The notes below the pieces were generated by a model, which did no database searches, was not told the origin of the DNA, and worked only from the letters and a program-made list of their open reading frames with translations. DNA of 51,094 nt from IMG/VR virus record IMGVR_UViG_3300038307_000123, positions 1-51,094 of that record, one strand, 5' to 3'. This stretch comes from a virus. Every line of letters starts with the position of its first letter. Position 1 is the first letter of the stretch. Made by a program: the position numbers and the translations under genes. This document shows, in pieces, positions 16,375-19,344 of this stretch.

Positions 16375-16387
16375 GGTGCTAAGCACC
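16375..16387 (-). promoter_or_regulatory. hairpin abutting the Shine-Dalgarno of RNA polymerase 2
   Basis: GGTGCTTAGCACC on the minus strand, a 6-bp stem ending 1 nt before AAGGAGG. Equivalent 13-15-nt hairpins with changed but paired bases sit before the ribosome sites of the genes starting at 18156, 18467 and 19150. Confidence 0.65.
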
Positions 16388-16758
16388 TAACGAAACGGGG
16401 ATGACCAGTCCCCAAACAGATGGTCGAAGACCCACGCTTAGCGGTAGCCAAACGTGGGGAAAAAAGCAGACCCACACATGTATGCACACGTATGCCCTGA
16501 GAGGCACGGAGAGCCCTCCTGAGGGCAGTTCTCCAGTCTACCCTAGGTGTACCCCTCTTTAGAAGGGATGCCCTTAGGGCGGATCCTAGGGATTCCTAAG
16601 GAATGTCCTCCAGATACTGCCTGAGGCAGGGGCTGAGGTAAGTCCAGCCCTCAGGGGTGGTCGCCAGTCCGAGCGGAAGCGAAGCCACCCCCACCCCGAA
16701 GGGTGGGACGCTCAGGGCTTAAGGCGGTTTAGTCTCCTCACCCTGATGAGGACCCGTA
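16388..16758 (-). other. long structured leader before RNA polymerase 2 (no gene)
   Basis: About 370 nt without a credible protein gene. On the minus strand it carries many hairpins: CTGCC-TCA-GGCAG, GGAGA...GCCCTC-AGG-AGGGC...TCTCC, GCCCTAAGGGC, CGTGT-GCAT-ACATG followed closely by CTGCTTTTTTCC, CCCACG...CGTGGG and GGGGA-CTGGTCA-TCCCC. The hairpin and U-run could terminate or attenuate transcription into the polymerase gene. Confidence 0.5.
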
Positions 16759-17283
16759 TTAGCTACGGGGAGAGAAGCTGAAGCCATTCGTACTAGCGGT
16801 ACGAGTAGCTGGCTTCTCCTTGATGCCGAAGGCTTCACGAGTGAAGCGGTTACCTTCGGGGTCACAAACATCGATGTTACCCAGCGTAGCTGAGTTCCAC
16901 TGCGAGTAGAATTCCTTATAGGAAGTCTCCAAGCAAGAGCCACCCACTTCATGGGTGATCTTCCATCCAATGTGTCCTTCGAAGTACCGGACAGTGCCGG
17001 TGAACTTGATGACCACACCTTCAGTGGTATCGACAACAATCTTACCAGTGGCTTTGAGCTTCTTACCGTAAGCGTTCATCAGAGTGAACCCTTGCAGCGT
17101 AAGCTCTTCCACCATGTCGTGAGCCTCCTCCGCTGACAGGTAGCCACTAGTGCCGTCCTGCTTTGCGAACTTGACCACGCCATTGGACCTATTGGAGGTG
17201 CTGAAGACCACCAATGAGCCCTTCCCGTTATGCAGCCAGAGACCAGCGAAACGGGCATAGGAGGATGTTGTTTGATTGTTCAT
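16759..17283 (-). CDS. hypothetical protein (174 aa)
   Basis: No family recognised. MNNQTTSSYARFAGLWLHNG, then a beta-rich N-terminal half (GSLVVFSTSNRSNGVVKFAKQDG, TGKIVVDTTEGVVIKFTGTV) and a C-terminal part with CDPEGNRFTREAFGIKEKP and a Ser/Thr tail. The ATG at 17283 has AAAGGAG about 8 nt upstream. It lies in the GC-richer block between structured intergenic RNAs. Confidence 0.75.
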   Translation of the reverse strand: MNNQTTSSYARFAGLWLHNGKGSLVVFSTSNRSNGVVKFAKQDGTSGYLSAEEAHDMVEELTLQGFTLMNAYGKKLKATGKIVVDTTEGVVIKFTGTVRYFEGHIGWKITHEVGGSCLETSYKEFYSQWNSATLGNIDVCDPEGNRFTREAFGIKEKPATRTASTNGFSFSPRS

Positions 17284-17606: not shown

Positions 17607-17817
17607 GATAGCCTCCAACGAATGGATTACAATAGTTTATAGACGCACTGGCAAACCCATCCTTAAGTCCAGCGGTCCATGTAAGTAGCACCTGTTGTGC
17701 GGGTGTTCCTTCTCCGCTCTTTGGGGTGGGTGATCAGGGTCACCCGTGATGCCTCTATCCATGAGGCGAAAGCCTACCATACCCTTTCAGGCATGGTAAG
17801 CGAGTTGTGGTTAGATG
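17607..17817 (-). other. structured intergenic region (no gene)
   Basis: About 210 nt without a protein gene. On the minus strand: TACCATGCC-TGAAA-GGGTATGGTA (17775-17798), GCCTC-ATGGATA-GAGGC, GGGTGA-CCCTGA-TCACCC and CGCTGG...CCAGTGCG. No hammerhead core (CTGANGA with a GAAA partner) is present in this one. Confidence 0.5.
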
Positions 17818-18156
17818 TCAACAATAGTGAGGAGTCTCGGTATCCTGTCGAGAGCCACGTTCCTCTTCACATACCACACGGTACTCTCCACCGTCACCCC
17901 ATCCCTTGGGGATGTAGCCTTCCGTATCACGGTAAGGACTATCACCCTCAGGCATGTTAGCGGTGTTGCGAGCTCGCTGCATAGCTTCAGAGTCCGTCTT
18001 CAGCTTACAGTAATCACCCACGAGAGCACGGAGCTGGTGTGCTTCCTCACGATTCGCCACTTCGAACGACTCGCGAGGAGTCCACCAATCGTACCACCAA
18101 CCGCCCTCTTCGGGTCCGCCGTAGCACTGCTCCACGTTGTAGATTGTAACAAACAT
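17818..18156 (-). CDS. phage protein with YGGPEEGGWWYD motif (112 aa)
   Basis: MFVTIYNVEQCYGGPEEGGW, continuing WYDWWTPRESFEV. I recall short proteins with this G-G-P-E-E-G-G-W-W-Y-D signature near the N-terminus and a GE-x-R-V-x-x-E-x-x-x-G block near the C-terminus from other phages; no function is known. Here YRVVCEEERGSRQDTETPHY supplies the second block. The ATG at 18156 has AAAGGAG about 8 nt upstream, preceded by the 18170-18182 hairpin and the first hammerhead element. Confidence 0.75.
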   Translation of the reverse strand: MFVTIYNVEQCYGGPEEGGWWYDWWTPRESFEVANREEAHQLRALVGDYCKLKTDSEAMQRARNTANMPEGDSPYRDTEGYIPKGWGDGGEYRVVCEEERGSRQDTETPHYC

Positions 18157-18169
18157 CTGTATCTCCTTT

Positions 18170-18182
18170 GGTGCTTAGCACC
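18170..18182 (-). promoter_or_regulatory. hairpin abutting the Shine-Dalgarno of the 112-aa gene
   Basis: Minus strand GGTGCTAAGCACC ending 2 nt before AAGGAG. It belongs to the covarying GRTGCT-N-AGCAYC hairpin set. Confidence 0.65.
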
Positions 18183-18198
18183 ATAGAGCTGAGGGTCT

Positions 18199-18257
18199 GC
18201 CTCGTCAGTGCCATGAGACCATTCATGACAGACTCCCCACTGCTGGGAAGTTTCGGC
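18199..18257 (-). ncRNA. type II hammerhead ribozyme (copy 1)
   Basis: On the minus strand, in order: stem II strand GCC; core GAAA (18254-18251); stem III ACTTCCC/GGGGAGT with a 6-nt loop; cleavage triplet GUC (18233-18231); stem I TGTCATGA/TCATGGCA with loop ATGGTC; core CTGACGA (18208-18202); stem II strand GGC. This is the circular order of a type II hammerhead, with every conserved core base present. Predicted cleavage is between 18231 and 18230. It starts directly after the stop codon of the 69-aa gene. An alternative pairing of GTCTGTC with GGCAGAC would inactivate it. Confidence 0.88.
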
Positions 18258-18467
18258 TTAGCGATTACGCAACTCACGCCTGAGCTCTTCGTAATGACTC
18301 GCTGGTGGTACAAAGTACCGATGATACATCCACCGCAATGCATCAGCAGCTATCCACAAGAGTGGTCGCCACAATGCTACCCAGTAGACATAAGCTCCTA
18401 CCACACACACTGCTACGAATAACAGAATAGTAATAGCCAGCAAAACAATGAGAATGAATTCAAACAT
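18258..18467 (-). CDS. small membrane protein (69 aa)
   Basis: MFEFILIVLLAITILLFVAV, then CVVGAYVYWVALWRPLLWIA. Residues ~3-42 are almost entirely hydrophobic, enough for one long or two short membrane helices, followed by a basic cytoplasmic-type tail (HYEELRRELRNR). Function unknown. The ATG at 18467 has AGGGAG about 7 nt upstream. Flanked on both sides by hammerhead elements. Confidence 0.75.
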   Translation of the reverse strand: MFEFILIVLLAITILLFVAVCVVGAYVYWVALWRPLLWIAADALRWMYHRYFVPPASHYEELRRELRNR

Positions 18468-18480
18468 AACGTATCTCCCT

Positions 18481-18495
18481 TGATGCTGAGCATCA
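18481..18495 (-). promoter_or_regulatory. hairpin abutting the Shine-Dalgarno of the 69-aa gene
   Basis: Minus strand TGATGCTCAGCATCA, a 7-bp stem ending just before AGGGAG. The same fold as the GGTGCT hairpins, with compensated base changes. Confidence 0.65.
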
Positions 18496-18510
18496 TAGAG
18501 CTGAGGGTCT

Positions 18511-18569
18511 GCCTCGTCAGTGCCGTGAGACCATTCACGGCAGACTCCTCATTGCTGAGGAGTTTCGGC
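18511..18569 (-). ncRNA. type II hammerhead ribozyme (copy 2)
   Basis: Same order as copy 1: GCC, GAAA (18566-18563), stem III ACTCCTC/GAGGAGT (perfect), GUC (18545-18543), stem I TGCCGTGA/TCACGGCA (perfect), CTGACGA (18520-18514), GGC. Stem I and stem III differ from copy 1 by paired substitutions. Predicted cleavage is between 18543 and 18542. It starts 1 nt after the stop codon of the 76-aa gene. Confidence 0.9.
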
Positions 18570-18570
18570 G

Positions 18571-18801
18571 TTACTCAAGATCAGACGGGTAGATCTTCTT
18601 AGCGTACTCACCTTGACCGTGAATCACTAGAGGATCTTCCTCGGACTTATCCTTCTCTTCGGCACTCATGGCCTTGAGAAGTCTATCAGCAGCCTTGGCA
18701 ATACAAGTCATAGACTCGATTACCTTCGTCTGCTGTTGAACAAGAGAGACAAGCTCTTTGTTCTGAGTGATAAGTTCTTTGATCAATGCTAGTTCGTTCA
18801 T
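18571..18801 (-). CDS. small helical protein (76 aa)
   Basis: MNELALIKELITQNKELVSL, then VQQQTKVIESMTCIAKAADR. The heptad-like spacing of Leu/Ile/Val over residues ~4-45 suggests a coiled coil. The C-terminus is acidic, then ends GQGEYAKKIYPSDLE. Function unknown. The ATG at 18801 has AAGGAGG about 7 nt upstream; the third hammerhead lies 5' of it. Confidence 0.75.
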   Translation of the reverse strand: MNELALIKELITQNKELVSLVQQQTKVIESMTCIAKAADRLLKAMSAEEKDKSEEDPLVIHGQGEYAKKIYPSDLE

Positions 18802-18834
18802 GACGAACCTCCTTAAAATAGAGTTCGAGGGTCT

Positions 18835-18891
18835 GCCTCATCAGTGCCGTGAGACCATTCACGACAGACTCCCATCGCTGGGAGTTTCGGC
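18835..18891 (-). ncRNA. type II hammerhead ribozyme (copy 3)
   Basis: GCC, GAAA (18888-18885), stem III ACTCCCA/TGGGAGT capped by a GCGA (GNRA) tetraloop, GUC (18869-18867), stem I TGTCGTGA/TCACGGCA, CTGATGA (18844-18838), GGC. It has U at the free core position N7, where copies 1 and 2 have C. Predicted cleavage is between 18867 and 18866. It starts 1 nt after the stop codon of the 85-aa gene. Confidence 0.9.
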
Positions 18892-18892
18892 G

Positions 18893-19150
18893 TTACACAT
18901 TATAGATGTGTGTGAGTTCCATCCGACCATTGTGAAAGCTTACCTTAATGATAGGGTTCTCCTTCTCAAAGATATAAGCTGTTACATAGGTCGAATCCGT
19001 AGACCGGATGTACTCCTCTACAAACTTCATACTCTCTTCCGTAGTAGAATGAATTTTGATGAGAGGCTCACCTAAGCATTTCTCTATCAATGTGACAAAC
19101 AATGAAGTCTTAGGTTGAGTATCTGCGGTCTTGCGTGCTAGGTTAAGCAT
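18893..19150 (-). CDS. hypothetical protein (85 aa)
   Basis: MLNLARKTADTQPKTSLFVT, then EESMKFVEEYIRSTDSTYVT and a strand-rich end (PIIKVSFHNGRMELTHIYNV). No family recognised. The ATG at 19150 has AAGGAG 7 nt upstream, with the 19163-19175 hairpin before it. It is probably the first gene of the early region. Confidence 0.7.
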   Translation of the reverse strand: MLNLARKTADTQPKTSLFVTLIEKCLGEPLIKIHSTTEESMKFVEEYIRSTDSTYVTAYIFEKENPIIKVSFHNGRMELTHIYNV

Positions 19151-19162
19151 GGTATGCTCCTT

Positions 19163-19175
19163 GATGCTAAGCATC
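19163..19175 (-). promoter_or_regulatory. hairpin abutting the Shine-Dalgarno of the 85-aa gene
   Basis: Minus strand GATGCTTAGCATC ending 1 nt before AAGGAG. Fourth member of the covarying leader hairpin set. Confidence 0.62.
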
Positions 19176-19344
19176 GTTGGGGGATCCCCTTGGTAAATTC
19201 TAACTTAAGAATTTGACAAGTCCAAGGGGGGGTACGAGGGGGATTGCTTTAAATCAATCCTAAACACCCCCTCTACAGATTCGCGACCCCCTACCGGATT
19301 CCAGAGTCATTCCTCAGTTCACCGACGAATTCATTAGGAGGCAC
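19176..19344. other. intergenic leader region (no gene)
   Basis: No protein gene. On the minus strand it has GGATTG...CAATCC, AATTCT-TAAGTT-AGAATT, a GGGGATCCCC palindrome and several C-runs. Nothing here looks like a well-spaced sigma70 promoter. Confidence 0.45.

Follow-up and report, generated by a model that had tools for sequence, protein, structure and literature searches.

Predicted type II hammerhead and pistol ribozymes in a row behind small-gene stop codons of a phage that encodes two single-subunit RNA polymerases

What do three short, similar elements do at the junctions between consecutive small genes of a phage, and how far does such an arrangement depart from what is already known? 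The question is raised by an uncultivated virus contig from IMG/VR, record IMGVR_UViG_3300038307_000123, whose 51,094 nucleotides constitute the window analyzed here; its relatives were taken from the same collection. A sequence-only reading had described three elements of ~58 nt as type II hammerhead ribozymes, each between a stop codon and the leader of the next gene, and had regarded a tandem series of intercistronic processors as new. All genes predicted in the region are minus-strand genes. Along the transcript, the giant ORF is followed by ORF 19815-19453, the 85-aa ORF, copy 3, the 76-aa ORF, copy 2, the 69-aa ORF, copy 1, the 112-aa ORF, ORF 17606-17412, ORF 17283-16759, a pistol ribozyme and the gene of one of the two single-subunit RNA polymerases of this phage (Table 1). 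A Pfam search with the giant ORF and searches of PHROGs and Pfam with the 85-aa ORF returned no match, and no named phage showed DNA similarity over the whole region.

Scanning the whole window with Rfam 15 revealed exactly three matches to RF02276 (Hammerhead_II), all on the minus strand, and no further Hammerhead_II in the record. This covariance-model comparison, which the sequence-only reading had proposed as a check, placed all three copies well above the cut-off of 37 bits, with E-values of 2.9e-8 to 5.3e-9 against the whole Rfam library. Each copy displays the anatomy given by that reading, namely stem II GCC/GGC, GAAA, a stem III of 7-8 bp, GUC, a stem I of 8 bp and CUGA[C/U]GA with its variable base, and the core CUGANGA ... 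GAAA ... GUH is complete with its pairing intact in all three. Loops close stems I and III while stem II is open, which is the type II order. Cut sites computed from the model alignments fell on the positions already proposed. The elements had also been located correctly, but their 3' border had been drawn ~8 nt too short, since loop I (GGUCU) is base-paired to the tail AGACC. The resulting GGUC/GACC pseudoknot, present in each copy, had been missed; type II hammerheads typically have a pseudoknot of this kind (PMC3088659). On the plus strand, a hammerhead-like reading near 17745 (GTGATGCCTC...GAGGCGAAA) was rejected, its core being absent by eye and Rfam giving no match.

Table 1. Ribozymes, genes and leader palindromes of the locus (window coordinates)
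Feature	Coordinates	Strand	Evidence or remark
Giant ORF, 4715 aa	19815..33962	-	Upstream of the ribozyme region in all hammerhead-carrying relatives (synteny)
Small ORF, 85 aa, upstream of copy 3	18893..19150	-	Shine-Dalgarno (SD) AAGGAG
Type II hammerhead copy 3 (5'-most in transcript)	18827..18892	-	RF02276, 53.3 bits; predicted cut 18867/18866
Small ORF, 76 aa, between copies 3 and 2	18571..18801	-	Ortholog follows the single hammerhead of G001
Type II hammerhead copy 2	18503..18570	-	RF02276, 56.2 bits; predicted cut 18543/18542
Leader palindrome GATGCTCAGCATC, between copy 2 and SD	18482..18494	-	Pattern search
Small ORF, 69 aa, between copies 2 and 1	18258..18467	-	N-terminal half hydrophobic by eye
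Type II hammerhead copy 1	18191..18258	-	RF02276, 54.1 bits; predicted cut 18231/18230
Leader palindrome GGTGCTAAGCACC, between copy 1 and SD	18170..18182	-	Pattern search
Small ORF, 112 aa, downstream of copy 1	17818..18156	-	Weak match to phrog_30656, E 1.2e-8 (phage families of unknown function)
Pistol ribozyme	16683..16751	-	RF02679, 44.7 bits (cut-off 34.5)
Single-subunit T7-like RNA polymerase, 700 aa	14260..16362	-	SD-preceded ATG 16362; PF00940, E 7.7e-48; phrog_414

Nine copies, comprising the three of the window and those of the contigs G001, G002, G062, G064 and G004 and of Roseobacter phage CRP-7, were aligned to examine the pairing. Standard pairs made up 98.4% of the pair cells, and 12 of the 21 base pairs, pseudoknot included, changed on both sides with pairing kept; the paired changes that had been pointed out between the window copies are thus real and reach the relatives. 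None of 500 shuffles reached the observed covariation or came close to it. In stem II a CG pair is swapped for UA, and in the pseudoknot GG becomes GA, AA or AG with the partner changing in step, so that GGUC/GACC of the window is replaced by GAAC/GUUC, GAUC/GAUC or AGUC/GACU in relatives. The core letters are invariant and the stems vary pairwise, and this covariation argues strongly that an RNA structure is under selection. Together, model scores and covariation fully support the prediction that the three window elements are type II hammerhead ribozymes, and this part of the earlier interpretation stands. The elements could instead be mere structural hairpins or decayed remnants that do not cleave, and the G001 copy (L001:7363-7443) deviates from the optimum in this sense: it scores 30.8 bits, below the cut-off, carries GUU at the cut and a long mismatched stem III, and looks degenerate. 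Such decay is, however, highly improbable for the window, where the core residues are intact in all three copies and belong to a core that stays invariant across the nine while stems and pseudoknot vary in pairs.

A fourth ribozyme, also overlooked by the sequence-only reading, was found by the same scan. The pistol begins 7 nt past the stop of ORF 16759-17283, with the RNA polymerase gene downstream. Its syntenic counterpart in G001 scores 65.8 bits, and the pistol of G002, which starts 2 nt past a stop, 66.1 bits. Read by eye, the P1 loop and the downstream strand are CAGGG/CCCUG in the window and CGCAGC/GCUGCG in G001. Within the lineage, only the window, G001 and G002 carry a pistol. A manA RNA (L003:5606-5800, 69.2 bits) lies downstream of the G002 pistol and may hint at the host or environment. 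A sequence pattern for this hammerhead type matched 106 stretches in IMG/VR, a sample skewed towards GGC/GCC stem II because the pattern demanded GGC, and 50 of the pattern-matching records (49 viral contigs and CRP-7) were searched over their whole length. No pistol was detected in these 50 other hammerhead-bearing records, which makes the pairing of hammerhead and pistol a trait of the window's lineage. A pistol adjoining hammerheads is in itself expected, since the class came to light in searches around other ribozymes and around phage genes associated with ribozymes (PMC4604425).

The position of each ribozyme relative to its neighbors is precise. Copies 3 and 2 start 1 nt past the TAA stops of the 85-aa and 76-aa ORFs, and stem II of copy 1 abuts the TAA stop of the 69-aa ORF; the placement between a stop and the leader of the next gene, already apparent from the sequence, is thereby refined to a start 0-1 nt past the stop, followed by a gene bearing its own SD. 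The predicted cuts lie 26-28 nt behind the stops and 65-75 nt before the next ATG.

Hammerhead cleavage leaves a 2',3'-cyclic phosphate on the upstream product and a 5'-OH on the downstream one. With each hammerhead starting at a stop, and the pistol within 7 nt of one, cleavage would leave the upstream message with a very short 3' UTR whose last structure is the stem III hairpin, terminated by a 2',3'-cyclic phosphate. The message downstream would start with a 5'-OH and have a leader of 65-75 nt, with the stem I hairpin at its front and an SD of its own. As stems I and III are both closed in the type II topology, a hairpin would cap each of the new ends; the predicted energies in the window are -10.6 to -11.8 kcal/mol for stem III and -8.4 to -12.5 kcal/mol for stem I. 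Such caps should shield the ends from exonucleases and from decay that depends on a 5'-monophosphate, and single small genes would in the end receive separate messages from one long transcript. The hairpin-capped ends therefore point to separation of the message into single-gene units as the most likely function. Family membership, pairing, placement and conservation form the basis of this model, from which we infer cleavage in infected cells, protection of the ends and a benefit for separate expression. Judged from sequence, the three hammerheads and the pistol are active and process the minus-strand transcript running from the giant ORF in the direction of the RNA polymerase gene with a probability of roughly 0.7, and splitting of a polycistronic message, with cleavage during infection, is probably the best explanation of their role.

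To place this arrangement in a wider context, 135 distinct phage type II hammerheads from IMG/VR loci (L018-L120) were analyzed, with genes taken as open frames and no gene finder. A position between a stop and an SD-preceded start was observed for 102 of 125 (random positions, 12.6%). Counted from the stop of an ORF (60 codons or longer), the first base of stem II fell at -2 to +3 nt in 85 of 130 copies, against 1.8% for random positions and 4.1% for matched AGCC sites in the same loci. Both placement figures favor the proposed splitting of messages. This anchoring was seen in 55 of 79 loci, most commonly with stem II taking the G of a TAG as its first base. For the mature 3' UTR the predicted median length is 24 nt, most of it taken up by the stem III hairpin. 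Over the 135 copies, the predicted product hairpins have median energies of -10.9 kcal/mol (stem III) and -10.2 kcal/mol (stem I). In bacterial genome contigs, 11 of 29 copies were anchored (random, 1.9%); the rule thus holds strongly for environmental viruses and less so for these contigs. The term "stop codon" is absent from the main text of Perreault et al. 2011 (PMC3088659), and no later treatment of the anchoring was found in the literature searched, which was one paper library; anchoring of hammerheads at stop codons across many phages thus seems not to have been pointed out before.

A start at the stop codon also bears on the ribosome, which covers ~12-15 nt past its A site. A terminating ribosome would accordingly sit on GAAA and on some of stem III, keeping the ribozyme open, and cleavage could then depend on the translation level of the upstream gene. 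The 65% of phage copies that are stop-anchored agree with such gating, but plain intergenic compaction also yields stop anchoring, and a T7-like polymerase outruns ribosomes, so that the RNA may be cut before a ribosome comes; we consider gating unlikely. A broader proposal, doubtful but somewhat less so, sees phage type II hammerheads, along with pistols, as a general device for 3'-end formation, the device being fused to stop codons. In it, the A-G-C-C start would accommodate the stop, often a TAG overlapping stem II by one base, the message would end in a hairpin UTR of ~24 nt, and the terminating ribosome would gate the cut. If true, it would answer the open question of the role of prokaryotic hammerheads. 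With the locus and the stop anchoring taken together, the message-splitting proposal gains precision and becomes testable as a model in which 3' ends form with defined UTRs, and the placement rule could aid the search for further phage ribozymes.

Regarding the leaders, the palindrome G[GA]TGCTNAGCA[CT]C abuts the SD of four genes, that of the RNA polymerase included, at 16375-16387 and 19163-19175 as well as at the two positions of Table 1; with one mismatch allowed, five occurrences were found against 0.39 expected by chance. It also precedes the polymerase of G001 and follows the hammerhead of G002, and it may be an RNA hairpin or an operator. Were the leader hairpins to hide the SD, the ribozyme region would be a translational switch, and in copies 1 and 2 CUCU does pair with the SD across the palindrome. 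Over 104 phage copies, however, the probability of an unpaired SD was 0.65 against 0.67 in shuffled leaders (p = 0.34), by which hiding of the SD by the leader was rejected as a general rule; we regard the switch as improbable. The tail motif CCT[CT] is over-represented (21% versus 4% in shuffled sequences), possibly through shared descent. Scans of the region for sigma-70 promoters and terminators gave counts within ~2 standard deviations of shuffles.

Another conserved element, with no Rfam match, occupies positions 19227-19288 on the minus strand (AATCGACTA-GGGGTC[AG]NGAATTT...GGGG...CCCC-NN-TACCCC). Its length is constant at 62-63 nt and its middle is variable. In the lineage and in other phage contigs it lies near the end of the giant gene or behind it, often 0-20 nt past a stop; besides the window, the loci with the element are L001:6912, L003 near 1197, L161:2518, L152, L171, L172, L174-L178, L181, L182 and L184-L188. 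In a test for RNA structure, the variable middle formed hairpins no better than shuffles do, and for this reason we make no ribozyme claim. The element could be a protein-binding site, a packaging site or a new RNA.

Among the relatives, G001 (66.7 kb) has an RNA polymerase 87% identical to that at 16362-14260, and a broader search by RNA polymerase 1 added 29 records. A hammerhead lies shortly downstream of the giant gene in the window, G001, G002, G062 and G064, the RNA polymerase 1 of the four relatives being 49-80% identical. The hammerheads of G062 and G064 also start at a stop, overlapping a TAG by one base in the former and directly behind a TAA in the latter. G069 and G077 have the giant-gene junction without a hammerhead, which indicates that the element is dispensable in the lineage.

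Ribozyme and leader might mainly be a mobile or duplicated linker cassette: homologous recombination between its near-identical copies would allow phages to gain, lose and shuffle small genes, cleavage making the inserts harmless to their neighbors. In their 3' halves the window copies match G062 at 38-39/40 positions and G002 at 37-38/40, both relatives having an RNA polymerase 1 of 49-50% identity, but G001 at just 30-33/40, although RNA polymerase 1 is 80% identical there. A 100-nt cassette reaches 84% DNA identity to G002 where most other aligned stretches show 55-65%, the G002 copy has the palindromic leader of copies 1 and 2, and G001 and G002 each possess a single copy against three in the window. 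Yet a 134-nt stretch elsewhere is 88% identical to G002, so strong conservation is not peculiar to the cassette, and selection on the ribozyme could account for part of the similarity. We hold this account to be a serious candidate at somewhat under even odds; it is compatible with processing of the message, which we keep as the main reading.

Among known systems, the closest is the family RF02276 itself: the window copies share its core, topology and pseudoknot, score well above its cut-off and, with stem II GCC/GGC, stay inside the family range; RF02679 has one member in the window. A DNA search with the ribozymes alone matched a single named phage, Roseobacter phage CRP-7 (MK613349.1), whose type II hammerhead (570-633, 50.1 bits) is 71-79% identical in DNA to the window copies. 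Unlike the window, CRP-7 has one copy and no pistol, and further DNA similarity is almost nil. The annotated start of CRP-7 gp02 (619-1116) falls at 619, inside the hammerhead, and is therefore probably misannotated.

Clusters of prophage hammerheads that flank single genes or short gene blocks, often of type II with the loop I/tail pseudoknot, were described by Perreault et al. 2011, who proposed that long phage transcripts are processed into single-gene messages (PMC3088659). In that study a triple tandem array of A. tumefaciens was cut in vitro and, once cloned, in E. coli (PMC3088659). A 2017 review repeated the processing proposal and still called the role of prokaryotic hammerheads an open question (PMC6155905). 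Longer arrays occur in our sample as well: the 50 records hold up to nine copies each (nine in G051, eight in G030 and G036), mostly spaced by a few hundred to ~1500 nt. Long arrays with about one copy per gene, in G051 (L080, 64120-69424), G030, G036, G034 and G024, exceed the three copies of the window. The novelty that had been assumed for the tandem series is not supported, and splitting of the message by phage hammerhead arrays has been a published proposal since 2011. Like the clusters of Perreault et al., the window has its ribozymes, three hammerheads and a pistol, in one orientation (minus) between consecutive small genes; it differs from them in its two single-subunit RNA polymerases, in the pistol within the row and in the position of each copy at a stop codon. 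What is added here is this mixed hammerhead-pistol row in a two-polymerase lineage, together with stop-codon anchoring.
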